From an uncultured Lachnospiraceae bacterium (GTDB lineage: Bacteria > Bacillota_A > Clostridia > Lachnospirales > Lachnospiraceae): a DNA stretch of 31,587 bases. The first letter of the stretch is position 1. Each line of letters begins with the position of its first letter. The notes beneath the pieces were generated by a model. That model was not told where the DNA came from and did no database searches. It was given only the letters and a program-made list of their open reading frames with translations. Shown here piece by piece: positions 2,372 to 28,334 of the stretch. Made by a program: the position numbers and the translations under genes. The stretch is taken from the NCBI GenBank assembly GCA_947564305.1, contig CANOBT010000057.1, positions 1-31,587 on the forward strand, in the 5' to 3' direction.

Positions 2372-2391
2372 TTTATGCGACGTCGCATAAA
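2372..2391. repeat. element palindrome copy 1 (upstream of mobC)
   Basis: Core TATGCGACGTCGCATA at 2374-2389, extended to a 20-bp perfect dyad. It lies 25 bp upstream of the mobC start and overlaps the T-run of the preceding terminator. Exact core match. Confidence 0.9.
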
Positions 2392-2433
2392 AAAGCAGCA
2401 CGGAAGACCAAATAAAGGTAGGGTCTTCCGTGC
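2389..2433 (-). terminator. terminator after the pentapeptide/DUF5710-like gene
   Basis: Perfect 12-bp arms GCACGGAAGACC (2398-2409) and GGTCTTCCGTGC (2422-2433), followed on the minus strand by TGCTTTTTTA. A strong rho-independent terminator 10 bp after the stop codon at 2443. Confidence 0.9.
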
Positions 2434-2442
2434 CTGATCTGA

Positions 2443-4299
2443 CTATTCCCGCTCCGGCGCTTCTTTTCTTCTGTCGCCCACTTCGTGAGTATCAGTATGC
2501 TGCTTCTCTGCTTCTGCTTTAAACCCGCTTAATTTCTCGTGCACAGAATGATTTTCCCGCTCCTTCCAAAATAAATATTCACTTGTTGGAAGGTATGAAA
2601 AGAACTTGCTCCGATCCATTCCTTCTGTTATATACCATCTCTTTTTCAGGGGATTATAGCGTGCGCCATTCTGCTTTATTTCTTCAATTATCTGCCTGAA
2701 TTTCTGTGCTTCCTCTGTGAATGGCAGCTTCAGATAGATGGCTTCGTCATGTTTTTCAAGATAACTGGTGATATCATTGATTACATCTTGTCCGACGCTT
2801 TTCTCCACATACCATTCTTTCTTCGCAGGATCAAATTTTGCTCCCATACGCTTGATTTCATCCTTCACTGACATAAAAGTGTCCCTTGTCATGTAAGGAA
2901 ATCTTAATCTGACTCGCTGCTGTCCCTGTTCCTTGATTTTCTCCTGCAGGTTTTTTGTGATTACAGGATTCATCTCTGGTATAAACATCCTGATGAGCGA
3001 GTCACCCTGTCTTCCGGCATCAATATGCGATATCTCATATGTATCTGGATTCAGCAGCGCAGAATACTTTTCTTCCTCAACAATGTCCCCATCATGGGAT
3101 ATTTTCACAGAAAGATCCGCCGCATAATTTTCCATATCCACTCCATCCAGCCGCCATGAATATACATATCCCCCATTGTTGAACATTTCCCGTAATCTTT
3201 CTGCATAGGTTGCCGTCTCTTCCTGATCCATGCCAAGAGCTGCCTCCACTCTTACCACATCTGCCGGATTGCCGCATTCATGGAATATATTTTCACTCCC
3301 CTGGAACTCGCGCATACGGGTGTCCGTAAAGGTAGTATGGTAAAATACGGAGTCATGAACGGAACACTGACGCATATATGCCGTGTCAAATGAGCTTCCC
3401 CTAAACATACTATTTGCGACTTTAGCTGCGTTGATATCCGCATTACTGAAATTACAGTTATCAAATTCAGCCTGTGTCATTTTGCAGTCAGAAAGAACTG
3501 CATTTTGCAGACTTATATTCTCCGCCTTGGTCATACGGAACTCACAGTACCGCAACTCTGAACGGTCAAATAAGATAGATGACATGTCCCCCTTAAATAC
3601 ATAATTAGATATTATGCAGTTCGTCAGGTCAAGCATCTTTTTCCCGTGCCCGGCTCGGTTTTCCATGAAGTGGTTGTTTAATATCTGATCCAACTCATCC
3701 CTGCTGAGCACCCTCTTTTTCTCCACAGATACTCCCTCCTTTTTCCCGTCTATATCCCGCACCTCGTCATCCTGATACTCTGCTAATTCCGAAATAGGAT
3801 CATTTTGTTCCCACGGCGCGAGTTCCCTGACCCGTCCATTCAATATTTCATAGTTCTGTACATCGAGAATATCCTGCGTCTGTTCAGTAATCTGTCCATA
3901 CATTTTCAGTTCCAGATTAACCAGCTCCTGCATCATCTGCATCTTCTCATACTGCAGGCTCGAGATCTCCGCATCACGCTGAAATATACCAAACTGCAGC
4001 TCATTTCGCTGCGATGCATTAATATAATCATCTGCGTGCTGTACAATATTGTCTCGATATCTCTTCGCCAGGTTCTTACCTTCATCCGACTGGTTCACAA
4101 TATTATCACTAAATTCGGACATTCCCCGCAAAACTTCATCAGGAAAATCTATCGCCTTCTGAAAAATGTCATAATATTCGTTACTCAGCTCAAAAAAAAG
4201 CTTCCGATCCTTCCTTGACAGCCCGTCTCCCTCAAGACGTTTCATATAGCTGTCCAACTCCTGCAGGTAGTCGGACAAATATTTTGTGATTTCTGACAT
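2443..4299 (-). CDS. composite protein: coiled coil, pentapeptide-like repeats, two DUF5710-like modules
   Basis: A 618-residue protein of unknown function. The N-terminal third is helical and charged. Residues about 225-335 show degenerate pentapeptide-type repeats (alternating C/F/A-[DN] patterns such as SNADINAAKVANSMFRGSSF), which fold as a right-handed beta helix in known proteins. Two modules near the C terminus, around WYVEKS and WYITEG, share a pattern of R/K-x-G-A-[KR]-[FY]-[DN]-P-x-K-K-x-W-Y, which resembles DUF5710. The tail begins SVHEKL 34 residues from the end, the signature shared by five other proteins here. It is cotranscribed with topoisomerase III (6-bp gap; ribosome binding site GAGGT). 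A DNA-mimic or recipient-acting role is possible but unproven. Confidence 0.75.
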   Translation of the reverse strand: MSEITKYLSDYLQELDSYMKRLEGDGLSRKDRKLFFELSNEYYDIFQKAIDFPDEVLRGMSEFSDNIVNQSDEGKNLAKRYRDNIVQHADDYINASQRNELQFGIFQRDAEISSLQYEKMQMMQELVNLELKMYGQITEQTQDILDVQNYEILNGRVRELAPWEQNDPISELAEYQDDEVRDIDGKKEGVSVEKKRVLSRDELDQILNNHFMENRAGHGKKMLDLTNCIISNYVFKGDMSSILFDRSELRYCEFRMTKAENISLQNAVLSDCKMTQAEFDNCNFSNADINAAKVANSMFRGSSFDTAYMRQCSVHDSVFYHTTFTDTRMREFQGSENIFHECGNPADVVRVEAALGMDQEETATYAERLREMFNNGGYVYSWRLDGVDMENYAADLSVKISHDGDIVEEEKYSALLNPDTYEISHIDAGRQGDSLIRMFIPEMNPVITKNLQEKIKEQGQQRVRLRFPYMTRDTFMSVKDEIKRMGAKFDPAKKEWYVEKSVGQDVINDITSYLEKHDEAIYLKLPFTEEAQKFRQIIEEIKQNGARYNPLKKRWYITEGMDRSKFFSYLPTSEYLFWKERENHSVHEKLSGFKAEAEKQHTDTHEVGDRRKEAPERE

Positions 4300-4305
4300 A
4301 TGTGG

Positions 4306-6441
4306 TTACCTCTTCTTTCTGGGCTTAAATTCTACGGAAAACTTAAACTGCCAGCCCTGCTTTTGTTCTCCGACTGTCGTCGTGTAGCTGTACGCCTCTA
4401 TCCCGTTCGGGGTAAAATAGGCCGAATAGGTTCCCTCGCCTTCCTTTTTCTTAAGCCCCGTCACGTATATCTTTTGTCCTTTCAAAAGAGCGGCAACCTG
4501 TTCATCAGACAAAGTCTTTCCTCTGATCTTTGCAAGTGACATGCCGCACTTTCCGGTGCAGTATGCTCCGTATGGTCCCGCTTTGACCTCTGCACCGCAT
4601 TTCGGACATGTTCCAAGATGTTCCCGGCTCTCCCGCTGCTTTGCCGCCTCATATCCGATCTTCCTCTCGTCCGGGATCGGCGACGCCACAAATTTTTCTA
4701 TCGTATTGCTGATATCTTCAAGCAGTCCGTCGAGGAAATCCTGCTTACTGAGATCTCCAGCATTGATCTTCTGCAGGTTCTCTTCAAATTGCTGTGTAAG
4801 TTCGGGTGCCTTGAGTTCTACAGGCACAATCTTTATGTACTCTTCTCCCAGCGCTGTAACGCTGTATTTGCCCTTCTCGCGGGCAATAAACTGTCTCTTG
4901 GGATTCTGCAGCTTCTGAATAATATCTGCCCTTGTGGCGCTTGTACCGATGCTGTATTTCTCCATCACCTTAACAATCGTCTCATCATTATAACTTTTTG
5001 GCGGCTCAGTCTTTTTTTTCTGCAGAACCGCGGAAGCAACGGCAATGCTGTCTCCCTCCAAAAGCTCCGGCAAAATCTGCAGGTCATCCGCCTTCTTTTC
5101 CGCTGTATTTTTAAAGAGCTGCTTATACCCAAGACTGCGGATCGTCGTGCCGGCAGACTTAAACTGATTTCCCCCTATGTCTACTATGATTTTAGTCGCG
5201 TCATACTCATATGCCGGATAGAAAATTGCAATCAAGGAAAGAACAACCGCATCAAACACGCTTTTTTCATCCTCCGACAAAGATGCATAAGCCGCTTCCA
5301 TGTCGGCATTGATCGTAGGAATCAAGGCATGATGATCTGTTACCTTCAAATCATTAAAGTAACTTTTATCAGCCTGCAGAGCGGTAAAATTTATTTTGTC
5401 TATTGCCGGAGCAAACGCTCCAAAGCGGCAGCTTTCCAGATGCTCGGCAATCTCGTCATAGACATCCATGGACAGGTACTGGCTGTCTGTACGGGGATAA
5501 GACAGTATCTTATGTTTTTCATATAAGGCCTGCGCGATCTCCAGCGTCTTATTCGGTGAGAAGCTGTATCTGCGCCCCATATCCTGCTGCAGTCTGGCCA
5601 GATTATATAAAAGCGGCGCCTTCTCTCTTTTCTCCTGCTTTTCATACTGTACCACCGTTCCTGTACCGGTGCTTTTTCCCAATGCTGCTTCCGCATCTTT
5701 CTTCTGAAAAAATTTGAGTCCCTTCTCGTCTTCTCCGATCAAAAGCCCTTTAAAACCCTTTGTATATGTGACCTCAACATTCCAATAAGGCTCTGACTTA
5801 AACTCCCGGATTGCCTTATCCCGCAGGTACACAAGCTGTAATAACGGCGTCTGGCATCGGCCATACGACAAAGTCTGCCTGTATGCCCTTGTGAGCGTAA
5901 GGAGCGGACTGTAATTAAAGCCAAGGATATAATCCCCCTCCGCCCTGGCTTCCGCCTCCCGCAATATTCCCTGAAACTCCGGCAGATCATTCTCTTTCAG
6001 GTTATCCATTGCTGTCTGTATGCCTGCTTTTGTCAGGGAGCTCGCCCACAAAACCTTTTTCGGCAGGCGACATCCGGCCATTCGGTAGATCCATTCCTGG
6101 ATCAGATACCCCTCTCTTCCGGCGTCACCGGCATTAATCAGCATCTCAATATCGTTCCTGTGGATCAGGTCTTTTATTACCTTATACTGATGCCTTGTCT
6201 CCGGAAGCACCTTTAGACTGTCCGACAGATCAAACGCGACAGGCAGGTTTGCAAGACTCCATCTCTTATATTTTTCATCATGCTCCTGCGGTTGTTTCAA
6301 TCCAACCAGATGCCCGATCGCCCAGGTCACCACATATCGTTCCCCTTCCATATAGCCGTTATGTTGCTCCCCCGCTCCGACAACCTTTGCGATATCAGCG
6401 CCTGCAGCGGGCTTCTCCGCCACAATTAATATTTTCCCCAT
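4306..6441 (-). CDS. topB: DNA topoisomerase III (type IA)
   Basis: A 711-residue type IA topoisomerase that would pass single strands to resolve DNA intermediates during transfer or replication of the element. The Toprim domain begins MGKILIVAEKPA and carries GDAGREG at residues 105-111. The active-site tyrosine is Tyr315 in SYPRTDSQYL. A C-terminal Cys4 zinc-ribbon-like segment (CPKCG...YCTGKCG) follows. The start at 6441 has an excellent ribosome binding site (GGAAAGGAG); a longer frame from 6504 would run through the palindrome and is rejected. Topoisomerases of this type are common passengers in Tn1549-like elements. It leads the two-gene unit with the pentapeptide/DUF5710-like protein. 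Confidence 0.95.
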   Translation of the reverse strand: MGKILIVAEKPAAGADIAKVVGAGEQHNGYMEGERYVVTWAIGHLVGLKQPQEHDEKYKRWSLANLPVAFDLSDSLKVLPETRHQYKVIKDLIHRNDIEMLINAGDAGREGYLIQEWIYRMAGCRLPKKVLWASSLTKAGIQTAMDNLKENDLPEFQGILREAEARAEGDYILGFNYSPLLTLTRAYRQTLSYGRCQTPLLQLVYLRDKAIREFKSEPYWNVEVTYTKGFKGLLIGEDEKGLKFFQKKDAEAALGKSTGTGTVVQYEKQEKREKAPLLYNLARLQQDMGRRYSFSPNKTLEIAQALYEKHKILSYPRTDSQYLSMDVYDEIAEHLESCRFGAFAPAIDKINFTALQADKSYFNDLKVTDHHALIPTINADMEAAYASLSEDEKSVFDAVVLSLIAIFYPAYEYDATKIIVDIGGNQFKSAGTTIRSLGYKQLFKNTAEKKADDLQILPELLEGDSIAVASAVLQKKKTEPPKSYNDETIVKVMEKYSIGTSATRADIIQKLQNPKRQFIAREKGKYSVTALGEEYIKIVPVELKAPELTQQFEENLQKINAGDLSKQDFLDGLLEDISNTIEKFVASPIPDERKIGYEAAKQRESREHLGTCPKCGAEVKAGPYGAYCTGKCGMSLAKIRGKTLSDEQVAALLKGQKIYVTGLKKKEGEGTYSAYFTPNGIEAYSYTTTVGEQKQGWQFKFSVEFKPRKKR

Positions 6442-6460
6442 ACTTCTGCTCCTTTCCTGA

Positions 6461-6476
6461 TATGCGACGTCGCATA
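6461..6476. repeat. element palindrome copy 2 (upstream of topB)
   Basis: Exact TATGCGACGTCGCATA, 20 bp upstream of the topB start and 8 bp after the stem of a terminator-like hairpin. No promoter fits between hairpin and gene. Confidence 0.9.
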
Positions 6477-6484
6477 AAAGCCAA

Positions 6485-6515
6485 AGAGGCAGCCGATCAT
6501 TCACCGACTGCCTCT
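6485..6515 (-). terminator. terminator after spoVG-like gene
   Basis: Perfect 8-bp arms AGAGGCAG and CTGCCTCT with a 15-nt loop lie downstream of the spoVG-like stop. The minus-strand tract after the stem is TTGGCTTTTA, an imperfect U-run, so termination may be partial. Confidence 0.6.
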
Positions 6516-6530
6516 ATCTATTATGACTGC

Positions 6531-7103: not shown

Positions 7104-7105
7104 TG

Positions 7106-7144
7106 CTACAAACCAGTTACTGCAATGCAGCTAAAGCGCCACAA
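7106..7144 (-). CDS. possible 12-residue leader coupled to spoVG-like gene
   Basis: A very strong ribosome binding site (AAAAGGAGGTG, 7151-7161) is followed after 8 nt by TTG and a 12-codon frame ending in TAG, just 2 nt before the spoVG-like ATG. This geometry would allow termination-reinitiation. Alternatively the frame is the relic of the lost front of the tandem SpoVG. Both are inference. Confidence 0.3.
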   Translation of the reverse strand: MWRFSCIAVTGL

Positions 7145-7166
7145 GGGAACCACCTCCTTTTCCACA

Positions 7167-7200
7167 CTAAAAACAGCCGGATACTTTCTCCGACTGTTTC
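7167..7200 (-). terminator. terminator at the end of the long secretion operon
   Basis: AAACAG and CTGTTT arms, extended by CGG/CCG across one mismatch, form a hairpin followed on the minus strand by a TTTTTAG tract. It sits 36 bp after the stop of the last secreted-protein gene and directly before the ribosome binding site at 7151-7161. Confidence 0.65.
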
Positions 7201-7235
7201 GATAAAATTTATACTTTAGAAAATTATGTAGCAAA

Positions 7236-10557: not shown

Positions 10558-11643
10558 CTAAAAATCAATATCCATTTCGCCATAGGGATACTCGTCGTCC
10601 GCATCAGGTTCCGCTTCACCATCATCCCCGTTAATGTCTTCATCTGTATGCGACGTCGCATATTCATCCGGATCCTGATCGAAGAATGCTTCCTCTTCCG
10701 AGTCCCCATTAATTAAAGTCTCCAGATATTCCTCCTTTTCCGCATCGTTATAATCAAAATCTAACTCCTCCTCATCTTCTTCCGGTGCAAATTCATCCAT
10801 GTCCATCGCATCAATGACATCCATGGCCTCATCTTTCTTATTCCGATAAATTTTCATGTAATAATATATGCCGCCGCCAATTCCTGCAAAAAGCAGAATG
10901 ATCAGGGCATTCCCAAATGTGGATTTTGGCTTCTCGTTCGCCTGCGGCTCTTCCGAGGTTCCCGCTGTCTCGTTTTCTTCCGCCAGAATAGATAAAAGAT
11001 TATCCTCTCCCTTATCATCCGTGCCGTTGGAAGTATCATTGCCATCTGCTAAAACTCGCAAATCACCAAGGGAAACCGTATCGAGCAGGTACACGTTATC
11101 TGTGCCCCGCCCCTGATCAACTACCAGATACAGTTCCTCCCCCTCCTTTGTAGAAAACGTATAAAATACCTTTTCGCCATCTACGGTTCCGTCAGTCTTG
11201 GTACGGGATGATACACTTGCCGTACCGGGATTCCCGGTTTCCTCTGGCTCTGCTTCCTCTTCCGTGTCCTTTTTTCCAAGCTCCAGATCAATATTGATCC
11301 GCTGTTCATCATCCTCATAAGAATCTGAAACATCATAGTAGGAATCCGCCTCATCGCTTTCTCCGTCTGCAGCATCCGGTTCAAAGCGCCGGGACGTTAT
11401 GTTTCCGGCCACATCTTTGACATAGATCGTGTGGGATGTGCCCGCCGGAACCCTGAATTCGTTTGACTCCGTAAATGCCGATGGAGCGTCCGAGTCAAGC
11501 GCATACTGCAGATTTGCATTATCATCTACCGCATCCACGGATATGGTAATATACTCTTCACCGTCCGATGCCTGTGCATAGCTTGGAAACGCCAGACCTA
11601 CAAGGAGCATCCCAACCGCCAATACATACAATTTATTCTTCAT
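10558..11643 (-). CDS. DUF4366-type secretion-operon membrane protein
   Basis: A 361-residue protein with a signal peptide (1-25), an extracellular part containing a conserved patch VFYTFSTKEGEELYLVVDQG and LDTV near residues 158-190 typical of DUF4366, a transmembrane helix at 244-263 and a very acidic cytoplasmic tail. DUF4366 proteins recur in Tn1549-like conjugation operons; their precise role is not known to me. The acidic tail carries YATSHT, encoded by a copy of the 16-bp palindrome at 10647-10662. The gene overlaps the upstream Ig-like gene by 11 nt. Confidence 0.82.
   Translation of the reverse strand: MKNKLYVLAVGMLLVGLAFPSYAQASDGEEYITISVDAVDDNANLQYALDSDAPSAFTESNEFRVPAGTSHTIYVKDVAGNITSRRFEPDAADGESDEADSYYDVSDSYEDDEQRINIDLELGKKDTEEEAEPEETGNPGTASVSSRTKTDGTVDGEKVFYTFSTKEGEELYLVVDQGRGTDNVYLLDTVSLGDLRVLADGNDTSNGTDDKGEDNLLSILAEENETAGTSEEPQANEKPKSTFGNALIILLFAGIGGGIYYYMKIYRNKKDEAMDVIDAMDMDEFAPEEDEEELDFDYNDAEKEEYLETLINGDSEEEAFFDQDPDEYATSHTDEDINGDDGEAEPDADDEYPYGEMDIDF
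10647..10662. repeat. element palindrome copy 3 (inside DUF4366 gene)
   Basis: Exact TATGCGACGTCGCATA inside coding sequence, read as Tyr-Ala-Thr-Ser-His in a disordered acidic tail, 108 bp upstream of the next gene's start. Confidence 0.88.
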
Positions 11644-13249
11644 TTATTACTGCCTCTCCTTCTGTTTTTTCTGTTATGCTCCGGATAACAGGGGCCCGGG
11701 TATCAATGTTATCTACTGTAATCCCTTGCTCCGCTGTATTTCCGACAGCATCCCGAACCTGAACTGTCCATGTCCCGTTCGCATCCACGCCTTTACTGCT
11801 TTCCGACGTCCATCCGCTGTCTTTTCCCGACGCAGTACAGATATAGCGGTATTCGACCGGAAGATTGTCTTCCGCCGATACATAAATAGTATTTTGTCGA
11901 CACCATTCTTCCTTGTATTGCAGACTTATGTTGATTGTCGGCGCCTTATTGTCCACCACGATAAGCTCCCGGTCGGCTGTCGCAACATTCCCAGCTTCAT
12001 CTCTGCAGTATGCCGTCCAGATACCGTTTTTCGTGATTTCAGCCGTAAATACCGCCTCCTTCTTCCAGTCCTCTTCCTGTATCTCTAATCCTTCCGGAAG
12101 AAACGCATAGTCAAGTTGACGGGTCGGCGTCACATCATCCGACGCCGAAACAGATACTGTCACCGGCACCGGCCGATCCACATTACTTACTTCGAAATCA
12201 TCAATTTGCAGCTCGCTGATCACCGGAGCCGTCAGGTCAAGCCCCTTTAAATTTACCGGTGCCTCCAGCGACTCCCCGTCCTGTTTCCGATAACCAAGCG
12301 TACCCTCTGCCGTACCTGCCTCCAGCCGGTTGTAATCACACGCTGTTTTAACGGTTGTGATTGTCTCCTGCATGTTTCCTGACGCTGTCTCCGAACTTTC
12401 CTTTGACTCCTCTGTGTCAAGGAAATAAAGACCGCTCAACCCCGTTATCACTTCTTGTCTCCCATCCGAATAGGTCACCTCTACAGGAATCTCTCCGGCA
12501 TTCACATACTTACCCGCTTCCGCACTAAATTCATCTGCGGAAATACTGCTGACCGCTCCTGAAAGAATATGCAAAGCTGCAGTATAGTTAACTTCCGGAT
12601 TGTGTCCAACACGGATACGGCAGCGGATCGCCTTTTCTCTGTCAGCCGTCAGTTCTAACAGCGATATCTTCCGCTGCAGCTCGTCGCTCCTTTCTCTTAC
12701 CATTTCCGAAGACGCTTCTTCCCATTGTCCGGATTCCGTCTCAATTTCCCATTGGTAATCTCCGGCATCAGGGTAATACGCCTGAAAAACTGCCAAACCA
12801 CCTTTTTCGGCATAAACATCAGAAGGTTCCAGAATTGTATTATCCAGAGGAACCGGCTCCTCCCTGTTCTCCGTTTCTTCCTCTGTTTCCTTTTCTTCTG
12901 TCTCTGCTTCGTTCTCCTCCGGCTTCACATCTTCTTCACCCTCGTCTTCACTCACTATATCCGCTCCTATGTCTTCCTCTGCCGCCTGTGCAACCGCGGC
13001 ATCGATCTCCGCCTCTTTCTTTAGCTGCGGCAGAATCGGCGCTGACATATAAATGATAAAGCACACTAGGACAAATGCTGTTGTCGGCAACAATAGCCTT
13101 CCCACTCGCTTAATCATTTTGTGATCTCCAGTAAAGCCTCGTATATATCCCTGGATGACCCCCGTCAGATAAGCAAAAAGTCCGGTAATACCAAATGTTC
13201 CGACAAGGCTTTTCTTCTCACGATATCGCCTGCTCACTCGATCCCGCAT
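11633..13249 (-). CDS. membrane-anchored protein with Ig-like domains
   Basis: A 538-residue protein. A short basic N terminus and an amphipathic stretch lead to a transmembrane helix at about 51-72 (LLPTTAFVLVCFIIYMSAPIL), then an acidic Glu-rich linker (about 90-135) and a large extracellular region of bacterial Ig-like beta domains. Several repeats end in patterns such as GIWTAYCRDEAGNVATADRE and GTWTVQVRDAVGNTAEQGI. The start at 13249 is placed at ATG with GAAGGAG seven bases upstream; an earlier in-frame Met at 13342 would run far into the previous gene. It overlaps the DUF4315 gene by 32 nt. Probably a structural surface part of the mating apparatus (inference from context). Confidence 0.78.
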   Translation of the reverse strand: MRDRVSRRYREKKSLVGTFGITGLFAYLTGVIQGYIRGFTGDHKMIKRVGRLLLPTTAFVLVCFIIYMSAPILPQLKKEAEIDAAVAQAAEEDIGADIVSEDEGEEDVKPEENEAETEEKETEEETENREEPVPLDNTILEPSDVYAEKGGLAVFQAYYPDAGDYQWEIETESGQWEEASSEMVRERSDELQRKISLLELTADREKAIRCRIRVGHNPEVNYTAALHILSGAVSSISADEFSAEAGKYVNAGEIPVEVTYSDGRQEVITGLSGLYFLDTEESKESSETASGNMQETITTVKTACDYNRLEAGTAEGTLGYRKQDGESLEAPVNLKGLDLTAPVISELQIDDFEVSNVDRPVPVTVSVSASDDVTPTRQLDYAFLPEGLEIQEEDWKKEAVFTAEITKNGIWTAYCRDEAGNVATADRELIVVDNKAPTINISLQYKEEWCRQNTIYVSAEDNLPVEYRYICTASGKDSGWTSESSKGVDANGTWTVQVRDAVGNTAEQGITVDNIDTRAPVIRSITEKTEGEAVINEE

Positions 13250-15782: not shown

Positions 15783-18686
15783 TTAGACTGCCTGCTTCGA
15801 CTTTTCCTTCTTCTTTCCGGCACGCAGCGCCTCTCCCGGCTTCGTGGTCATAACTTTGTAGCAGACCGTATTCTGCGGGAACTCATCCTCAAATGGCACT
15901 TTCGCCTGCTCGATCCACAAAAGTCCTTTCCCCGGTTCCCCTGACTTAATATAATTTTCTTCCTCCTCTGACAAATCCAGATGTTCCGCCAGAAGTCTGG
16001 CATCATCCCCCGCCTGATTCAGCATGGCGATAAAGTTTGTCGTGTCAAGGATGTTCTGGATTTCAGGCGAACGGAACAAGTCCTTGATATTCTGTGTGAT
16101 GCCGCTGGGGATTCCGCCCCATTTACGAAATCTTTTCCAGATCTCTACGCTGTAGGCCGCCGTAATCGGACTGCGCAAAAGCAGATGAAACTCGTCGATA
16201 TCCACCCATGTCCATCTTCCCCTCGCCCGGTTCTGTGTGACACGGTTCCAGATCGCATCCTGAATAATCAGCATGGTAAGATCCCTCTGATTTGCGTCCA
16301 TATCCTTTAAATCAAAACACACCAGTCTGGCATTGATATCCACATTCGATCTGTGGTTAAAGTACGACAGGGAACCGGATACATACCGTGATAGCGCAAT
16401 CGACAGATCCAGTCCGATCTGCTTCATCTCTCCCTGCATGGCGCGCAGCTCGTTGTAAAGATCCTCCATGACAGGCATTTTCTCCGGCACGGGATCTTCT
16501 GCGAACCGATGATATATTTTTTTGCAGGCGGTATCTATGACCGCCGTTTCCCTTTTGGATAAAGCAGCGTTATTCCCAAGAATCAGTTCGCACATGGAAA
16601 CCACAAAATTACACTTTGCTGCTATCGGGTCGTAGTCCTTATCCATTTCATTTTTTGCTGACAGATTAATTTCCAGCGGATTGATATGTACCCGTGAGTT
16701 AAGCGCAATCTTAATCACCTGACCGCCAAGCAGCTTATACAGCATCCCATACTCTCCTTCCGGGTCGATGGTCAGCCTGTCATCTTTGGTGCGAAGAAAC
16801 ATATCCAATATCTCGCGCTTCACAAAAAAAGTCTTGCCAAAACCCGGCATCCCGAAGATCAGGCCGTTTGGATTGACCAGATTTTTGCGGTTCTCCACAA
16901 TCACGTTGTTTGACAGACTGTTCATGCCGTAATACTGTCCCTTATTTGTATAAAGCTCCTTCGTCGTAAACGGAATAAAAATGGCCATATCCGTCGTTGT
17001 AAAAGTACGTTTGACCTCTACCGTATTATTCCCCAGCGGAAGCGCCGACATATATCCCTGCTCCTGTCTGTTGTCAAGCCGTTCCAGGCGGCACTGATAC
17101 GCTGACAAAATACCGTTTAGTTCAAAGATATTCTCCTCCAGCTCTTTTCTGCTTGCTGCTGTCTGCACCACGGTGATTGTAGTATGGTACATCTGCTCAT
17201 TCTTTCGCTGAATATCGCGGTATAACTTATCTCCGGCGTCACGGTACGTCTCCAGCTCCGGCGGCAGCATATCCATGTCATATCCGTTTCGGACAGCCTG
17301 CTTCTGGTTCGTAATGATCATTGCCTGAATATCCGTCACATTTCCTTTGGCATAATCTAGCGCTTCCTTGCGGGACATTGCCCGGGAGTGAATGGAGATC
17401 CACAGATTGCTTCCCAGATTCAGCATATCCGCTATGATGCGGTCTTCCATATCAGAGGCGAACACCTGCAGATAGCTGACCGCTCCTACCCGGTCACCGA
17501 CACGAAAATATCTTGTGGCATTTAACTCCGGGCCGGATTTAAAGGAAAAACCGGATGGCGCAATGAAATCCTTACTGGAAAGTCCTGTGTTTACAGGCAT
17601 GTCCCAATTCCACATGAATCTTTCCTTCGTCGCCGGATGAAAAATCCGAAACAGAAGCTCCAGCCGCTCGTACCCGTTTAAAATCCTGCATCGGCTGTTA
17701 AACTTCCTCAGATATTTTTCAATCTGTTTGCTGATCTTGGCCATCTTTAACTTTGCGTTTCTGTAATCCTTTGCCTCTATGCCATAAGTCAGATACCGCT
17801 CTTTTTTCAGGTTATTTGTGCCTTTAGCGAACTGGCCCACCAGCATATCAGAATATTCCTTTCTTACAATGTTGTAAGCGTCCGGCTGCTGCTCGATCAC
17901 AAAATCTTTTGCGTATGTCTCCTTGTCCATCTCCATATTTCCGTAGTTAAACTGGAAATGGATATCCGGATTAAAATAGTTGATCAGTGTGCACCATCTC
18001 TCAAACAGGATATTTTTAGGCTCATTGTCAAGAAGCTGGTAGGTAATGTCCTCAAAAGCAATCGTCTGGGTAAAATATCCTTTATCTGACTCAAAAATGC
18101 CATCCTCGTAGGGAATCCTGTAAGGAATGGTGTCCTGCGCGGATTCCGGAATATCTCCTTTGATCTTTGCTTTTTTTACCGCTTTCTCCAGCTCCTTTTT
18201 CACCCTCGGGTCGATCGGCCCCTTCATGGGAATTGTGATTCGCTTCTTTCCCACCCTGACCTCTGATGTTTCGCCCGCCGCCCTGATCTGGGAGATCTCT
18301 TTCTCGGTTTTCCCCGAAAACACGATTCTCTCCACCTCCTTTTTCAATTTTTCTTCTTCCTCCTGTAAGACATACAGGTTATTTGTCACATATGGCCTGT
18401 CCGTATTGCGTATAAAGTGTGTCTCATAAAAATACCACAGGTATTTCTCCATCCCCATCCCGTTCTTCTTGTACAGAATGCAGATGACGATCGGGGCGGC
18501 CGCGATGCTGAGGCCCATGACCGATGCCATAATATCCAGCCCCAATGCAAACCGCATCACCAGAAATACCGGCATTCCCACGATAATCCCCGTTGCAAAA
18601 CCGGCGATCTGCCTTTTTGTCAGGTTGAGGCCCGGAATTGTCTTCCGGACCTCTGAAAAATCCTTTGTCATGTTTACATATGCCAT
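15783..18686 (-). CDS. virB4: VirB4-type conjugation ATPase with N-terminal PrgI domain
   Basis: A 967-residue ATPase energising the type IV channel. Residues 1-75 form a PrgI-like membrane module (NLTKRQIAGF, two hydrophobic helices at about 27-47 and 52-72), which in Tn1549-like elements I would expect as a separate small gene. The VirB4 domain has Walker A GMPGFGKT (612-619) and Walker B WVDIDEF (about 827-833). The start has GGGGAGGAG upstream and there is no internal ribosome binding site obvious at the domain boundary, so a natural fusion is likely. It follows VirB6 with a 17-bp gap and precedes the M23 peptidase gene. Confidence 0.95.
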   Translation of the reverse strand: MAYVNMTKDFSEVRKTIPGLNLTKRQIAGFATGIIVGMPVFLVMRFALGLDIMASVMGLSIAAAPIVICILYKKNGMGMEKYLWYFYETHFIRNTDRPYVTNNLYVLQEEEEKLKKEVERIVFSGKTEKEISQIRAAGETSEVRVGKKRITIPMKGPIDPRVKKELEKAVKKAKIKGDIPESAQDTIPYRIPYEDGIFESDKGYFTQTIAFEDITYQLLDNEPKNILFERWCTLINYFNPDIHFQFNYGNMEMDKETYAKDFVIEQQPDAYNIVRKEYSDMLVGQFAKGTNNLKKERYLTYGIEAKDYRNAKLKMAKISKQIEKYLRKFNSRCRILNGYERLELLFRIFHPATKERFMWNWDMPVNTGLSSKDFIAPSGFSFKSGPELNATRYFRVGDRVGAVSYLQVFASDMEDRIIADMLNLGSNLWISIHSRAMSRKEALDYAKGNVTDIQAMIITNQKQAVRNGYDMDMLPPELETYRDAGDKLYRDIQRKNEQMYHTTITVVQTAASRKELEENIFELNGILSAYQCRLERLDNRQEQGYMSALPLGNNTVEVKRTFTTTDMAIFIPFTTKELYTNKGQYYGMNSLSNNVIVENRKNLVNPNGLIFGMPGFGKTFFVKREILDMFLRTKDDRLTIDPEGEYGMLYKLLGGQVIKIALNSRVHINPLEINLSAKNEMDKDYDPIAAKCNFVVSMCELILGNNAALSKRETAVIDTACKKIYHRFAEDPVPEKMPVMEDLYNELRAMQGEMKQIGLDLSIALSRYVSGSLSYFNHRSNVDINARLVCFDLKDMDANQRDLTMLIIQDAIWNRVTQNRARGRWTWVDIDEFHLLLRSPITAAYSVEIWKRFRKWGGIPSGITQNIKDLFRSPEIQNILDTTNFIAMLNQAGDDARLLAEHLDLSEEEENYIKSGEPGKGLLWIEQAKVPFEDEFPQNTVCYKVMTTKPGEALRAGKKKEKSKQAV

Positions 18687-19859: not shown

Positions 19860-19881
19860 GGATATGCGACGTCGCATATCC
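19860..19881. repeat. element palindrome copy 4 (upstream of the secretion operon)
   Basis: Exact core at 19863-19878, extended to a 22-bp perfect dyad, the longest in the window. It lies directly between the Fic terminator and the ribosome binding site of the pilin-like gene, 21 bp before the GTG start. Confidence 0.92.
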
Positions 19882-19883
19882 CA

Positions 19884-19924
19884 ATAAAAAAACTCCCTTG
19901 GGAGTTGTGCTCCTTGGGGAGTTT
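19884..19924 (-). terminator. terminator after the Fic gene
   Basis: AACTCCC (19891-19897) and GGGAGTT (19900-19906) pair and are followed on the minus strand by seven T residues. A second AAACTCCCC/AAGGAG pair just upstream (19910-19924) could extend or rearrange the stem. It separates fic from the secretion operon, leaving no room for a normal promoter before the pilin-like gene. Confidence 0.8.
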
Positions 19925-20795: not shown

Positions 20796-20811
20796 TATGC
20801 GACATCGCATA
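20796..20811. repeat. element palindrome copy 5, variant (between virD4 and fic)
   Basis: TATGCGACATCGCATA: one central change from the consensus, both 6-bp arms kept. It starts 2 bp after the virD4 stop and lies upstream of the fic promoter. Confidence 0.85.
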
Positions 20812-20813: not shown

Positions 20814-22613
20814 TTAAAGAACAATCTTATACTGATCGTTCTTGTGGAACCGGATCTTCACGCTCTCCTTCTCCTTCATTTTTCGACGATACTTTTTGAA
20901 ATCAAAGGTATTACGCTCGTCATAATCCGCCGTGTACTTATAGTTTGGATGCGTTTTCGGATCAAACTTATTGCTGAAGAATGGCGGCAGACCGGAAACG
21001 CGGACAATGCACTTATCCCGATCCATTGTATTAAGCTCATAGATATTTTTGAGTTCCCTGCCCGTTTTGTTGTAATTCACACCGGTGCTCCTGCTCTGAC
21101 TGAATGTCTCGGAATTATTCCACAGGTCGATCGTTTCCTTTCCGAGCATTTCTTCCAGATCCTTGAGCGTTGATTTCTCCTGCCCTCCCAGAAATATGGA
21201 AGAATCGCAGTTGCCGGTGATGGTTTCTGCAGCGTCCTTGTAATTGTCCTTGAGCTGACTCTGTGTCTGCAGCATCATGATGACGCTCATCAGGCGGCTT
21301 CGGATCGTCGCAATCAGTATCTTAAATCCTGGTATCTTTCCGATATTGGCAAACTCGTCAAGAATAAACTGCACCGGGGTCTTCAATTTGCCGCCCATTT
21401 CTTTGTCCGCTTTGTAGCAGAGCACATTAAACATTTGTGTGAACAAAATCGCCGGGATAAAGTTATAGGTCGTATCCGTGTCCGATATGATGACATACAG
21501 GATGGACTTCTGCCCTGCATCGCCGTAAGTGTCAAACTTTAACTCATCACATGCTACCAGCTCGGCTACATCCGGAATATCAAATGGCGATAAATAAGAG
21601 CCAACGGAAATCAGAATGCTTTTTGCCGTCTTTCCGGCCGCTTTTTTGTACTTTTTCCGCTGTTTTACCGCAAAATGGCGCGGGTTTTTCTTTTCAAGCT
21701 CCGCAAACAGCATATCCACGGCGTTCTCATATGTCTCGTCATCCTCTCTGACGTCATCCGCCTCCAGAATCTCCAAAAGTGTCGGTATATTCTGTTCTTC
21801 CGGCGGTGCCTCATACCAGAGATACCCGATCGTCGCCTGCAGCCACAAAAGCGCTGCCTGGTCAAAAAACGGATCCGGCGGCGTGCCTGCGTCCGGCGGT
21901 TTCAAATTTGCGTAAAGCACATTAGCCAGCGTCAGGATATCTTTTGGTTCCTTTATGTACGCAAAGGGATTATAATGCATGGAGCTTTTCATATCCACCG
22001 TATCTAATACATAAATGTTGTACCCCATTTTCGCGAAAAGATTTCCTGTCTCCGGAAGAAGAGTTCCTTTTGGATCTGTCAAGACATAGGAACTGTGGCA
22101 CTGATAAAGATTTGGTTTTACAAATCCATAGGTCTTACCGCTGCCGGATCCGCCGTATACAACCACATGCTTATTTCTGTTTAAATTAAACTTTGGCATT
22201 CTGGCTTTCATGGATAAACGCTCTGTCTGCGACAGAATAATGTTATTAAAGGGATCTTCGTCAATAAACGGTTTGATATCCTGCTCCGTTCCCCACTTGG
22301 CCGATCCGTATTCTTCGCCAAACCTTGTATTTTTCCTGTGCATCCTGCTTTGCCACCTAATTACATAGACAATAAAAAAACCTATTGGTATACCTATCAA
22401 CAGGTCTTTTGCCGTAAATCGCGGCGGAAATACTTTGTATATATATTGGATATTGGTAAGGAACTTTAAAATATCTCCGTGGCATATGCGGTATAATTCT
22501 GCAATCCGCGTCGCAAAAAAGATACCTAAAACATACGGCAGTACACTCATTATCTTATCTTTTGCAGGCTTGTCCTTAAACTTCTCAAGCCAGATTCTGA
22601 TTTTTTCTTCCAT
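20814..22613 (-). CDS. virD4: VirD4/TraG-type coupling protein
   Basis: A 599-residue ATPase that recruits the relaxosome and protein substrates to the secretion channel. Two N-terminal membrane segments (about 24-40 and 70-87) precede the ATPase domain with Walker A GGSGSGKT (154-161) and Walker B VQFILDEF (about 414-421). It follows pcfB, as in PcfB-PcfC pairs of Gram-positive elements. Start ATG has AGAGGAG about 10 bases upstream. If the shared SVxxKL tails are transfer signals, this protein or PcfB is the expected receptor (inference). Confidence 0.95.
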   Translation of the reverse strand: MEEKIRIWLEKFKDKPAKDKIMSVLPYVLGIFFATRIAELYRICHGDILKFLTNIQYIYKVFPPRFTAKDLLIGIPIGFFIVYVIRWQSRMHRKNTRFGEEYGSAKWGTEQDIKPFIDEDPFNNIILSQTERLSMKARMPKFNLNRNKHVVVYGGSGSGKTYGFVKPNLYQCHSSYVLTDPKGTLLPETGNLFAKMGYNIYVLDTVDMKSSMHYNPFAYIKEPKDILTLANVLYANLKPPDAGTPPDPFFDQAALLWLQATIGYLWYEAPPEEQNIPTLLEILEADDVREDDETYENAVDMLFAELEKKNPRHFAVKQRKKYKKAAGKTAKSILISVGSYLSPFDIPDVAELVACDELKFDTYGDAGQKSILYVIISDTDTTYNFIPAILFTQMFNVLCYKADKEMGGKLKTPVQFILDEFANIGKIPGFKILIATIRSRLMSVIMMLQTQSQLKDNYKDAAETITGNCDSSIFLGGQEKSTLKDLEEMLGKETIDLWNNSETFSQSRSTGVNYNKTGRELKNIYELNTMDRDKCIVRVSGLPPFFSNKFDPKTHPNYKYTADYDERNTFDFKKYRRKMKEKESVKIRFHKNDQYKIVL

Positions 22614-22634: not shown

Positions 22635-22652
22635 ATATGCGACGTCGCATAT
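22635..22652. repeat. element palindrome copy 6 (upstream of virD4)
   Basis: Exact core at 22636-22651, 18-bp dyad, 22 bp before the virD4 start, between pcfB and virD4. No terminator is seen at this junction. Confidence 0.9.
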
Positions 22653-23317: not shown

Positions 23318-23335
23318 TTATGCGACGTCGCATAA
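23318..23335. repeat. element palindrome copy 7 (upstream of pcfB)
   Basis: Exact core at 23319-23334, 18-bp dyad. It fills the gap between the stop of the replication-like gene (23343) and the pcfB ribosome binding site, 16 bp before the start. Confidence 0.9.
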
Positions 23336-24617: not shown

Positions 24618-24619
24618 CT

Positions 24620-25519
24620 TTACCTTTCTATCGCCCTTTCTTCCCTAGCTATTCCTATTGACTTAATCTGCCCCTGTTTCTCATGCAGCTTACTTAATAC
24701 AGAGCCTTTCTCCTCCCTATTGTCTGTCTGAACATTTTGAGTCTTCTTGTCATAGATCTGCTGCTCTCCCCGCACCACCGAAACAATCGCTGATGCCAAA
24801 GAGCCAGCTTCCCTATCATACCGCAGACAGTCATATGACCATGTTCCCCGGCTATGGTTGATACCGTTTAGAAGCTTAATTCCCCTTGCTGGCGGCTGCC
24901 ATTCGTTTAAATTTTTCGTATAATCATCCAGAAGAAAGTCATCCTTGCGGATACCATCCCGAATCCCTTCCTTTTTGTCTGTCCCACAGGGAACAAAGAC
25001 TCTGTGTTCTCTGTCAATCTCTGGAAGATATTTGTCCAGCCATGCATTTTTCTCCTGCAGGGCATATTTGCTGTCTGACAGATATGCTGATAAAATATTT
25101 ACTTCAATATCTGAATTTTTTGCAATAATCTCTTTTACTGCCGCCACGACATTTTCATGGGGCTCAAGATTCAAAAAATACCCCTTCTCATAAAGCGTCT
25201 CCATCTCATCTACCGGCTTAAAAACAGCCAGTGTACCATCCATGTCCACAAAAAGACGTTGCCGCTGTTTAGTGGGAACCATAAACTCTATTTCCTTCAT
25301 TTCATCACTGATCCAGCAGTCCTCTACCAGATCGCCATAATCTTCGTTTTGTCCCGACATAAACTTTTCTTTCATCCGCTGCGCCTGTTCATATGTATCA
25401 GCATAATAATCTTCACTTGGACTTGACCAATTCAAAGGATTGCCGTCTGCATCCTCCTCTTTCAGCCATACTGTCACTACATAGACACTCTTTTTTACAC
25501 TTCCGGTTCCTTTGCTCAT
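24620..25519 (-). CDS. HAD-family 5'(3')-deoxyribonucleotidase-like protein with targeting-like tail
   Basis: A 299-residue protein. An N-terminal unknown domain (about 1-85) precedes a HAD phosphatase domain beginning LFVDMDGTLAVF, with nucleophile Asp92 and Asp94. The order of motifs (ILSAY, then FLLDDYTKNLNEW) resembles the cytosolic NT5C deoxyribonucleotidases that dephosphorylate dNMPs. The tail begins SVLSKL 27 residues from the end. Start at 25519 has GGGGAGGAAATCG in front and is preferred to 25561, which overlaps the upstream gene. A role in nucleotide pools or recipient defence evasion is speculation. Confidence 0.78.
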   Translation of the reverse strand: MSKGTGSVKKSVYVVTVWLKEEDADGNPLNWSSPSEDYYADTYEQAQRMKEKFMSGQNEDYGDLVEDCWISDEMKEIEFMVPTKQRQRLFVDMDGTLAVFKPVDEMETLYEKGYFLNLEPHENVVAAVKEIIAKNSDIEVNILSAYLSDSKYALQEKNAWLDKYLPEIDREHRVFVPCGTDKKEGIRDGIRKDDFLLDDYTKNLNEWQPPARGIKLLNGINHSRGTWSYDCLRYDREAGSLASAIVSVVRGEQQIYDKKTQNVQTDNREEKGSVLSKLHEKQGQIKSIGIAREERAIER

Positions 25520-25539
25520 CGATTTCCTCCCCTCAGCTA

Positions 25540-25752
25540 TTAATCCAATGAAAACTCCCAAAGATCCTGCAGCTCTCCCTCTGTAACCTTTTCGAGTTTC
25601 TCAAGAACCTTTCTGACAATCTCTTCCATCCCTGGCAGATCAAGATATCCTTTAAGCTCATTTATGATCCTGTCCCTGTCAGGTGTTTTCAGATTACATG
25701 CTCTGATCAAATAGATTTCCTCCCATGTGAACTTATTTAAAATTTTACTCAT
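25540..25752 (-). CDS. small conserved-looking protein, unknown
   Basis: A 70-residue, mostly helical acidic protein (FTWEEIYLIRACNL, then ELKGYLDLPGMEEIVRKVLEKLEKVTEGELQDL). Its ATG shares a base with the stop of the ArdC-like gene (TAATG), so translation is coupled, and the HAD gene starts 20 bp after its stop. Small ORFs of this type are frequent next to ArdC-like genes in Firmicutes elements, but no function is known to me. Confidence 0.65.
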   Translation of the reverse strand: MSKILNKFTWEEIYLIRACNLKTPDRDRIINELKGYLDLPGMEEIVRKVLEKLEKVTEGELQDLWEFSLD

Positions 25753-27197
25753 TATCGTGTAGCCCCCTTTTCCTTAATATGCTGCTTATCCGACGGCGAA
25801 GTGGCCTGACTTACCTTGCCCTGATTCTTATGCAATTTATTTAAAACCGACCTGTTATGTTTCTGCTCTTCTGCAGATTCAAAAAATATCTGTGGCTGCT
25901 TTGTAAGCCTTTTCCATTGATCAAGCATTTCATTATAATTTCTTTCCGCATTTTTAAGACTCATGCTCTTCTTTTCAACTAAAGTACGAATTGCCGTAGG
26001 ATTTCCGTTTTTATATGAGACAATGTCAATCTCCTGTTTAATGGCACTTTTCGGATTGATTATCTGCATAGGGTTCCATCGATTATAAAAGCGAACAGAA
26101 ACTTTATTCTCTCCGCTTTCATAAATTGCTTCCTGGGACTCAACTGCATTTCCATTTGTTGCAAAATTAGCCGGCTTAACATCAAGAGAAACCCCGCACA
26201 AAGCGTCTAATATTTCCTCTCGATTGTTCTCTAACAGATTTTCAAAAAAGTTGACATCATTTTTACTCATTTCAACTTTTTGTATTTCCTCAAAATGCTC
26301 ATCAATACTGCTGATGATCTCAGCCGCAGCTTTGTGTATGGTTTCCAATGAGCCTTTCAGCTCCGCAAGCTCCCGTCCGCTGCTCCACCCCGCAACATAA
26401 CCGAAAGAATAGTCCGACGTGTCAAGATTGTAGTGCTGGCAAACAGTATAGGCAACGCTTTCGGCCTGTACTTCACGGGTGCGACGATCAAGCTGTTTCT
26501 GCGTGGCTTTTAGATCTATGTCGTGCAGTTTCGCGTGTGCAATTTCGTGAATGGCAGTCTTTAGGGTCTGCAGCTCGCTCATATCTTTTTGAATGGCAAT
26601 CCGCTTTTCCCCCGAATGATAATAACCATGGGCCGATCCTTCAATCATTTCAAATTCCATAGGTACAGGCGACGTTTTTTCTAATGCTGCATAAAAATCC
26701 CTGTACTGTTCTACGTCCCCATTCAATTCATTTACGCCAATATCCGGAAGTTCTCTGCCCTCTGTCTGCGACACGTCAAATACAGATACAACCTTAAATG
26801 CAGGTATAGTGACTTCCTTTTCTTCGGTGACAGGGTTTCCGTCTGTATCAAGCACCGCTTTTCCCGTTCGTGCATCTTTCTTCTCTACCCTCTGCCTGAC
26901 TTTGTACGGCGACGGAGCAAGTATGCGGATTCCTTTTTCATATTGCTTTACATGGCGGTCATATTCTTTTTGCCATGCTTTATAACCGGCAACAAAAGTC
27001 GCGTGAGGGTTTTGCATAGCAATCAACACCGTATTATTGAGACTGTAATTATGAAACTTTGACATGACACGCAGATATTCTTTATAGCGATCGCTGTTAA
27101 ATAATTCCATGATACCCTGCTCTAAGCGATCTGTGATTTCATTGATCTTTCCCTCCAAAGTTTCCGCCTGCAAAATAATTGGCTCTGTTTTACCCAT
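25752..27197 (-). CDS. ArdC-like antirestriction protein with zincin domain
   Basis: A 481-residue protein. The N-terminal domain (LEQGIMELFNSDRYKEYLRVMSKFHNYSLNN, then ATFVAGYKAWQK) is the ArdC ssDNA-binding fold. It is followed by a metallopeptidase motif HEIAH (217-221) with a downstream glutamate in QAESVAY. ArdC proteins protect incoming DNA from restriction and one is known to be carried into recipients during conjugation. A C-terminal region of unknown type ends in a tail beginning SVLNKL, 32 residues from the end. The ATG at 27197 is chosen over a GTG at 27224 that overlaps the ribosome binding site. Confidence 0.87.
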   Translation of the reverse strand: MGKTEPIILQAETLEGKINEITDRLEQGIMELFNSDRYKEYLRVMSKFHNYSLNNTVLIAMQNPHATFVAGYKAWQKEYDRHVKQYEKGIRILAPSPYKVRQRVEKKDARTGKAVLDTDGNPVTEEKEVTIPAFKVVSVFDVSQTEGRELPDIGVNELNGDVEQYRDFYAALEKTSPVPMEFEMIEGSAHGYYHSGEKRIAIQKDMSELQTLKTAIHEIAHAKLHDIDLKATQKQLDRRTREVQAESVAYTVCQHYNLDTSDYSFGYVAGWSSGRELAELKGSLETIHKAAAEIISSIDEHFEEIQKVEMSKNDVNFFENLLENNREEILDALCGVSLDVKPANFATNGNAVESQEAIYESGENKVSVRFYNRWNPMQIINPKSAIKQEIDIVSYKNGNPTAIRTLVEKKSMSLKNAERNYNEMLDQWKRLTKQPQIFFESAEEQKHNRSVLNKLHKNQGKVSQATSPSDKQHIKEKGATR

Positions 27198-27225
27198 TTC
27201 AATTAGTTTCCTTTCTCCTCCCACA

Positions 27226-27252
27226 GAAAAAGGCAGCCGTTAAGCTGCCCTT
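27226..27252 (-). terminator. terminator after the ParA/partner unit
   Basis: GGCAGC (27232-27237) and GCTGCC (27244-27249) pair around a 6-nt loop, followed by TTTTTC on the minus strand. It lies between the partner gene and the ArdC-like gene and may be leaky, since no good promoter for the ArdC operon was found after it. Confidence 0.75.
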
Positions 27253-27256
27253 TCCC

Positions 27257-27321
27257 TTCCCGCTAAAATTTTTGGAGGAAATCCGGCGGGAATCTATATA
27301 TGTTGCGATTGCAATATATAG
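27257..27321. repeat. two further inverted repeats near the end of the ParA partner gene
   Basis: TTCCCGC (27257-27263) pairs with GCGGGAA (27286-27292), and an AT-rich imperfect dyad around TTGC-gatt-GCAA spans 27294-27321. They could be regulatory or part of a composite terminator; no protein can be named. Confidence 0.35.
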
Positions 27322-27329
27322 CGTTTATT

Positions 27330-28334
27330 CTATCTCTTCTGTAAATTCTTGAGAAATTCTACAAGCGCTGTTTCTGAATGTGTCGCGTGACGATATTTTT
27401 CGTCATAAACTTCCCCGTTTGTCACCTTATTCTTTGCAAGTAAATGATAGTAGGCTTCATCACGCACTTCCCTGCTATAATAGGAATGTCTCTGCGGATG
27501 TTCCTCTACAACCAGACGGCTGCCGTCTTCAAAATCGAACTTATAGTAGTTCACATCAATATTTTCATCCCGATACCAGAGTCCCCACTCTTTATATTTA
27601 CTCAGCCATTCCTTTCTCTGATCTGCATTCTTTAATATAGGCAGTTCCGGCTGAGTTGTTTTCCATGGGAATGTCACCATTTCCTTATATGTACCCTTAA
27701 CTACAGGTTCCTCAGTAAATTCCTGTTCCTCATCCGGCTCGGTCTCTTTATGCGACATCGCATATTTTTTCTCCTGCAGATCAGGTGAGCTCAATCCAAC
27801 CGCATCTGGCATATATTCCGGGAAATCCTCTTCAATACTTATCTGTCCGGGCAAGTCAGCTTCTCCCGCCTCGTCCGTTCTATCCTCATTCCCTATTTTT
27901 TTCTTCTTGTTTTCTTTGCCGATGTCGCGGATCTGCCTCACTGTCATATCCGGCGTCACCTTTTCTAACTGCTCCTGCTCCAGCGGCAGCATCTCGATCA
28001 TTTGCGACTTATCAAAACCTGCATACCTTTCATCAAGCTCCGGCGAATCCTTATCCTTCGAGAATTTCTCGCAAATGTTGATAAATCTTGATACCGTTGA
28101 CTGTGAGTAGCCAAGCTGATCGGCTGCGCACTCATATATATTTGCATAACCATCCTCTGTGTACATCTGATCATCACGGATATGTTTTAAATACCAACCG
28201 ATTTTCACGAATGACTTCTGAATTTTAACGGATTCGTCTTTGATGATATCCAGAGAATCCCTATACCCCATCTCCCTTGGATCAAAAAGCCCGGCTTGTC
28301 CTAAATTCATTACCGAAAAAGATTTAACAGCCAT
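27330..28334 (-). CDS. ParA partner: helix-turn-helix DNA-binding protein (ParB/KorB-like role)
   Basis: A 334-residue protein directly after parA. Residues about 30-150 contain KIGWYLKHIRDDQMYTEDGYANIYECAADQLGYSQSTVSRFINICEKF, a helix-turn-helix of the DUF3102/ParB-HTH kind, then SQMIEMLPLEQEQLEKVTPDMTVRQIRD, like the region after the HTH in KorB/ParB. The N-terminal ParB nuclease/CTPase motifs (such as GERR) are absent. A variable acidic linker contains palindrome copy 8. The C-terminal domain (WLSKYKEWGLWYRDENIDVNYYKFDFEDG) is unrecognised. GTG at 28343 is an alternative start. Best in-window candidate to bind the palindromes (inference). Confidence 0.72.
   Translation of the reverse strand: MAVKSFSVMNLGQAGLFDPREMGYRDSLDIIKDESVKIQKSFVKIGWYLKHIRDDQMYTEDGYANIYECAADQLGYSQSTVSRFINICEKFSKDKDSPELDERYAGFDKSQMIEMLPLEQEQLEKVTPDMTVRQIRDIGKENKKKKIGNEDRTDEAGEADLPGQISIEEDFPEYMPDAVGLSSPDLQEKKYAMSHKETEPDEEQEFTEEPVVKGTYKEMVTFPWKTTQPELPILKNADQRKEWLSKYKEWGLWYRDENIDVNYYKFDFEDGSRLVVEEHPQRHSYYSREVRDEAYYHLLAKNKVTNGEVYDEKYRHATHSETALVEFLKNLQKR
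27749..27764. repeat. element palindrome copy 8, variant (inside the ParA partner gene)
   Basis: TATGCGACATCGCATA, the same central change as copy 5. Encodes Tyr-Ala-Met-Ser-His in the variable linker of the protein. Confidence 0.85.

Follow-up and report, generated by a model that had tools for sequence, protein, structure and literature searches.

The closest known system to the one described here is ParA-ParT-parS of the Streptomyces coelicolor plasmid SCP2 (Sukhoverkov et al. 2025, PMC12260392), in which an 18-bp parS was placed inside the parT gene; in the parts of that report drawn on here, ParT homologues are mostly from Actinomycetota (77 species) and Cyanobacteriota (21). SCP2 ParT is also described in the portion used of a second report (PMC13245405). 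KorB of RK2 is a partition protein of a conjugative element that acts as a gene silencer as well (McLean et al. 2025, PMC11790492, excerpted), and in the part of Jalal et al. (2020, PMC7383237) used here, R173 of ParB contacts guanine 1 of the site, Q173 of Noc adenine 1, and R201 cytosine 6. The present analysis concerns a stretch of 31,587 nucleotides, referred to below as the window, from an uncultured Lachnospiraceae bacterium (assembly GCA_947564305.1, contig CANOBT010000057.1). The window looks like a Lachnospiraceae integrative conjugative element (ICE), across which copies of a 16-bp palindrome are dispersed. With good confidence, the sequence comparisons point to these palindromes as parS-like loading sites of a ParT-like protein, named PbX here, a ParB-type helix-turn-helix (HTH) protein without a CTPase domain.

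The palindromes of the window

All eight copies that the initial annotation had listed were recovered where it had placed them: TATGCGACGTCGCATA occurs exactly six times, and two further copies are one-mismatch variants of it. Including a ninth, decayed copy, the sites are the following.

2374..2389, exact site, between a hairpin with T-run (2398-2433, by eye) and mobC
3024..3039, decayed ninth site, TATGAGATATCGCATA on the minus strand, inside the DUF5710 gene
6461..6476, exact site, between a 13-bp hairpin with T-run (6485-6515) and the topoisomerase III gene
10647..10662, exact site, in the CD1107-like gene near its end, where it codes for YATSH
19863..19878, exact site, between a hairpin with T-run (19891-19906) and the Maff2 gene
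20796..20811, site TATGCGACATCGCATA, upstream of a TTGATA-17-TATATT promoter-like pair (20784-20756, minus strand) and the fic gene
22636..22651, exact site, ahead of virD4
23319..23334, exact site, ahead of the DUF3801 gene
27749..27764, site TATGCGACATCGCATA, inside the PbX gene, where it codes for YAMSH in the disordered linker

By the ORF rule used below for the placement of sites, six of the eight copies do not lie in a gene, the exceptions being 10647 and 27749. With up to three mismatches allowed, the window holds nine matches, far above the mean of 0.14 and the largest count of 2 obtained in 100 dinucleotide-preserving shuffles of the window. The decayed copy has three mismatches to the exact sequence and only one to the variant TATGCGATATCGCATA, which the relative G007 carries without change at the corresponding position of the DUF5710 gene (L188:9564). 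Because the central two bases differ across relatives (CG, CA/TG or TA), the conserved core is TATGCGA-YR-TCGCATA. The right flank is free of copies, as the initial annotation had it. An equal density over the host chromosome, which would have spoken against that annotation, was not seen in the two relatives checked: in G021 all 8 copies found sit within 30 kb of a 4.6-Mb genome, and in G007 all 11 are on one 41-kb contig.

PbX and its predicted structure

The candidate binding protein is encoded directly downstream of a ParA gene.

27330..28343, minus strand, PbX, putative ParT-like centromere-binding protein, judged from covariation with the site and predicted fold
28340..29152, minus strand, ParA ATPase (PF13614, E 9.7e-59)

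Translated from the GTG at 28343, PbX has 337 residues and its gene overlaps parA by 4 bp; an alternative ATG lies at 28334. PbX has no match in Pfam or NCBIfam at E <= 0.001, and a search of the PDB by sequence gave nothing useful. The AlphaFold2 (AF2) model consists of an N-terminal peptide (residues 1-16 at low confidence), a long helix (27-57), a ParB/Noc-like HTH domain extending to about residue 152, a disordered linker and a folded C-terminal domain (about 230-337). ParB/Noc structures rank first in a structure comparison of the predicted DNA-binding domain. Foldseek on its own gave no hit at E <= 0.001; given the domain model, it listed Noc/ParB at the top. A CTPase (ParB_N) domain was matched neither in PbX, where just 26 residues stand ahead of the long helix, nor in any other open reading frame (ORF) of the window that was scanned, which makes PbX ParT-like and not a ParB or KorB. 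This refines the interpretation given in the initial annotation. Of 23 HTH domains, 6 weakly resemble DUF3102 (PF11300; best E 1.4e-4); that of the window reaches 14.3 bits, below the cut-off of 24.4. In an alignment of 33 PbX, an extra Cys-rich module (..YDCFSCAREKR..), possibly zinc-binding, was seen between the HTH and the C-terminus of G021, G007, G313, G396, G144 and G302, and a few others also carry it.

PbX was found in 50 of 397 genomes of Lachnospiraceae, the family of G021, and 4 of 391 of the class, and its domain profile in 17 of 392 genomes of the order (three weak) and 2 of 299 of the phylum, from which it follows that PbX is concentrated in Lachnospiraceae. The PbX family comprises 1356 protein clusters at E <= 0.001, with a Pfam domain in none of the 120 listed. 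Homology searches yielded no relative among PLSDB plasmids and two weak hits (26-33% identity) among phages. When viral contigs were scanned with PbX domains, two queries found 12 and 13 loci and two others no relative; the exact motif occurs in 29 viral-contig stretches, one site each, a count that is not used as evidence.

Association and covariation of PbX with its putative site

An exact motif scan of species genomes found at least 119 stretches, from which 30 genomes were picked by hand, mainly Lachnospiraceae, other Clostridia and multi-copy hits; the stretches left out were mostly single copies in other groups. All 30 contain the motif; PbX is present in 17 of the 30, and in 14 of the 15 with at least three copies, the exception (G013) having its copies on a 5.7-kb contig; co-occurrence was scored by genome, the motif and PbX not always being on the same contig (G006) or close together (G022). 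Palindromes were also counted without a preset motif in 21 elements fetched by a PbX hit, with a Markov sample, not an exact shuffle, as the null. At least three copies of one family form were obtained in eight of them (G110, G136, G336, G144, G396, G190, G269, G420), with 11 copies of GTGCGACGTCGCAC in G110, and at least one family palindrome in 15.

One copy often lies within the pbx gene itself. A perfect palindrome of at least 14 bp was found in 60 of 94 PbX genes, 56 being of one motif family, against 7.2 expected in all 94 by base counting; among control ORFs of at least 300 residues from the same stretches, 98 of 767 contain such a palindrome and 29 of 767 one of the motif family. Applied to SCP2 parT for a positive control, this search revealed the perfect 18-bp palindrome TGTCTCCAATTGGAGACA.

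The comparison of domain columns with half-site bases covered 68 PbX with a site (32 representatives); base 1 of the 14-mer half is position 2 of the 16-mer, and bases 5 and 6 are positions 6 and 7. Excluded as non-family were GGATGGCGCCATCC, AAATCTCGAGATTT, TATTCTTAAGAATA, AAGTCTGCAGACTT and GTTTATGGCCATAAAC, and halves ending in CGGATA or TGGCCA. The site was taken from copies elsewhere in the element for the window, G110, G007, G190, G024, G002, G015 and G011, the last from other contigs of the same genome. The best column for base 1 was the one with which the recognition helix starts (Gln81 in the window), that for base 6 was Val135, and those for base 5 were Val135 and then Arg139. On a tree of 60 tips built without the code columns, base 1 is A with Gln in 12/12 tips (11/11 without G011), G with Arg in 3/3 and T with neither in 44/44, one being undefined; tips that are related do not count as independent, and few tips fall in the G class. 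Bases 5-6 are GA with Val/Ile (43/43), GC with Arg-Arg (8/8) or AC with Lys/Arg plus Gln/Thr/Asn (8/8), and there is one GG with Val. Parsimony places seven changes of base 1 and three each of bases 5 and 6 on the tree. Among 26 held-out members, 14 have a site at most one mismatch from one of seven tested classes and 11 of these 14 fit the prediction; three of the 11 are near-identical, and L303 additionally carries an exact copy from a different class. Comparison shows, at the level of sequence, a joint evolution of PbX and site that follows a readable code.

On these comparative grounds, PbX would read both half-sites. In each half, the A at position 2 would pair with Gln81, which opens the recognition helix, and the A and G at positions 7 and 6 with Val135 and Arg139, which lie where the last helix of the domain begins. 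A reading of position 7 by the residue equivalent to ParB 201 was rejected; covariation falls on the residue with which the last predicted helix starts.

The co-occurrence, the sites within pbx genes, the covariation and the ParB/Noc-like predicted fold together support the proposal of the initial annotation that the palindromes are dispersed, KorB- or parS-like sites of the protein encoded at 27330-28334.

ParA, placement of the sites and a possible mechanism

The 94 PbX members were scored for an adjacent ParA and for five conjugation genes, MobC among them. ParA lies just upstream in 13 members by a strict test and in G015 as well, with a 92-nt overlap, giving a ParA-adjacent set of 14 that consists of the window and 13 of the other 93 members. 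Sixteen members have an adjacent ParA or a tested conjugation gene; ParA is directly upstream in 14 of them, 1 kb off in G136 and missing in L341. An ATG-started N-peptide of at least 22 residues is present in 14/14 ParA-adjacent members, and it has fewer than 15 residues in 62 of the 80 others; of these 80, 25 come from viral contigs. The part of the ParT paper used here (PMC12260392) reports that N-terminal disorder is likewise linked to having parA next door. On visual inspection, four stretches, of which two are viral contigs, resemble prophages, with ORFs that look terminase- and portal-like; many of the 80 stretches are short. The prophage-like L296, L285, G396 (L264/L247) and G190 (L255/L254) contain PbX, 2-4 sites and no ParA in the stretch seen, and some of their sites lie among structural-type genes. 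Such phage-type relatives without ParA nearby are new here.

Placement was analyzed for 87 sites in 12 stretches, namely the window, ten found through the motif and one found via PbX (G110), two of the 12 being contigs of one genome; a site counted as inside an ORF when it was at least 120 nt past the first ATG. Only 12 of the 87 sites are inside ORFs versus 66-81% of random points, and a Shine-Dalgarno (SD) sequence and start codon follow within 45 nt in 52 of 87 versus 21% at random. Sites recur before maff2 in 7/9 elements, before virD4 in 5/10, before DUF3801 in 4/7 and inside pbx in 6/11, a count blind to sites before topoisomerase III because the window ORF start was called too long. The large number of dispersed sites, mostly just ahead of genes, and the occurrence in Lachnospiraceae conjugative elements are likewise new. 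On the coding strand, a hairpin with T-run, the site and, a few bases on, the ribosome-binding site follow one another at 2374, 6461 and 19863, and the gap between hairpin and SD is too small for a promoter. This packing would suit a bound clamp that serves as a roadblock downstream of leaky terminators. In the relative G004, two sites with starts 33 bp apart (L190:2768, 2801) probably lie within the g11633 homologue.

A partition role of PbX is likely, and gene control is plausible. PbX would bind as a dimer, load at about eight sites and might slide from them without CTP, as SCP2 ParT does; its N-terminal peptide would work with ParA to position or keep the excised element. Since most sites are just ahead of genes, bound PbX may in addition, with less certainty, repress or insulate transfer-gene transcription as KorB does on RK2. 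In the tentative model that combines these activities, to which we give somewhat less than an even chance, PbX is a CTP-independent counterpart of KorB, a many-site sliding clamp that partitions with ParA and silences or insulates the transfer genes, and temperate phages without ParA nearby share the code for another purpose.

Several observations weigh against PbX as a ParT-like reader of these sites. The structural Z of its domain matches stays under 8, and in sequence PbX resembles SCP2 ParT only weakly (BLASTP E 0.096; by hhalign, over 123 columns of helix and HTH, probability 8.7% and E 0.0038). Six of the 21 PbX-fetched elements contain no family palindrome (G076, G058, G112, G022a, G162, G157), among them G022a, which has an adjacent ParA and in whose genome the sites begin 54 kb on, on the same contig. 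The window's in-gene copy at 27749-27764 is one base off a perfect palindrome, and in the ICE members G007, G024, G002, G015, G110 and G011 the PbX gene is free of family palindromes. The code fails at three of the 14 held-out sites (L323 and, both of the same genome, L345 and L346), and 12 of the 26 members held out lack a site close to any of the classes tested. Ten of the 12 stretches of the placement test had been found through the motif itself. Neither an adjacent ParA nor one of the five conjugation genes is present in 78 of the 94 stretches, so that partition cannot be the role everywhere. On the supporting side, 20 PbX-free control stretches, about 10 kb each side of CD1110-type VirB4 genes, hold no family palindrome in 394,345 bp versus 79 in 429,965 bp of 12 PbX stretches, a contrast that is supportive but not exact because the control elements are more distant (VirB4 41-47% identical) than the PbX elements, the PbX side was mostly found through the motif, and the controls were seen over only those 10 kb each side. 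In three controls with the same type of transfer backbone (L391, L399, L405), PbX's slot is filled by ParB, since ParA and a canonical ParB are found there.

Alternative explanations

The strongest rival, which we consider rather unlikely although well ahead of the others, regards PbX as an element-wide repressor or insulator and the sites as pure operators, a KorB without partition, with ParA serving another end. It draws on the 75 of 87 sites outside ORFs, the occupied spot before maff2, the viral-contig relatives that show no ParA in the stretch seen and the promoter-like pair just past the site at 20796. These points are opposed by the ParA directly upstream in 14 of the 16 ParA/conjugation members, all 14 with the N-peptide, by the sites within genes, by the missing room for a promoter between hairpin and SD at the three sites named above, and by promoter matches that did not exceed shuffles in the two regions scanned.

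Two other explanations are very improbable. The packing of several copies between a hairpin with T-run and an SD would suit an RNA hairpin, an alternative named in the initial annotation, in the leader ahead of the ribosome-binding site; this would leave the covariation of bases with residues of a DNA-binding domain unexplained, copies lie inside genes, the window has no Rfam match, and the PbX-free controls have no palindrome. Equally doubtful is a reading of the sites by another protein of the same element, the DUF6017/HTH_36 protein, SpoVG or MobC, all from families that bind DNA or RNA. It is PbX with which the bases covary, none of 56 site-bearing PbX stretches that lack the five conjugation genes (MobC included) shows a relative of DUF6017 or SpoVG, and controls with DUF6017, MobC or SpoVG but no PbX have no sites. 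A protected methylation site, also raised in the initial annotation, or a restriction site, for which GACGTC as the core of six copies would speak, is scarcely credible because this centre is not conserved, being replaced by GACATC, GATATC and in relatives GCCGGC, and GACGTC occurs outside the copies at 11805 and 21750.

Other genes of the element

The recognized genes of the element are all on the minus strand and include, besides parA and pbx, the following.

542-1987, minus strand, relaxase
2011-2388, minus strand, MobC/NikA-like
4306-6504, minus strand, topoisomerase III
10558-11643, minus strand, CD1107-like
15783-18686, minus strand, CD1110-family VirB4
20814-22613, minus strand, CD1115-family VirD4
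minus strand, Maff2, Fic, DUF3801, DUF6017/HTH_36 and ArdC-like genes

No integrase turned up among the window ORFs scanned, so the element is called an ICE because of its transfer genes and its chromosomal relatives. Adjoining parA is a piece that matches manganese catalase (PF05067, 29338-29829, plus strand), probably host or cargo flank, and right of parA lie two pieces with matches to AbiGii_2 (PF16873; 30148-30486 and 30658-31068) that look like a broken gene.

Comparison with known systems

The assignment would provide the large PbX family with a putative DNA target and a likely job, and would extend a CTPase-less type of partition, characterized for one plasmid in the part of the literature used here (PMC12260392), to Lachnospiraceae elements of conjugative and phage type. 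With dozens of protein-site pairs available in nature, spreading without CTP from many loading sites and the evolution of ParB-type specificity would become testable; if the CTP-independent KorB model is true, three residues suffice to read the specificity of any family member. Among the records listed in searches of an open-access library, none names a ParT-like system in Lachnospiraceae elements.

PbX shares with SCP2 ParT, as far as the published description used here goes (PMC12260392), a ParB-like HTH protein without a CTPase domain, an N-peptide and a long helix. The parA-parT order with an annotated 4-bp overlap is that of the window. The palindrome TGTCTCCAATTGGAGACA in SCP2 parT is presumably the published 18-bp parS; the SCP2 site has G at position 2 from the outer end, and ParT has Arg aligned with Gln81 of PbX. 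The two systems differ in that a single parS, inside parT, is described for SCP2, whereas the window has eight dispersed 16-bp sites.

KorB, too, uses a residue of the last helix, and its operator sequence differs from the PbX site. Dispersed operators are a KorB-like feature of the element, with eight sites and the decayed ninth in the window and 4-12 in 11 related stretches counted. KorB is a CTPase clamp according to the excerpts used (PMC11790492), unlike PbX, which has no such domain. With ParB/parS and Noc/NBS, as described in the part of PMC7383237 used here, the PbX sites share the 16-bp palindrome, the same rule at position 2, where R or Q goes with G or A, and the switch between A and C at position 7 of the 16-mer. 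The middle of the site differs in sequence, and position 7 is assigned to V135 of the last helix in PbX, compared with residue 201 in ParB/Noc, in an alignment made by eye.

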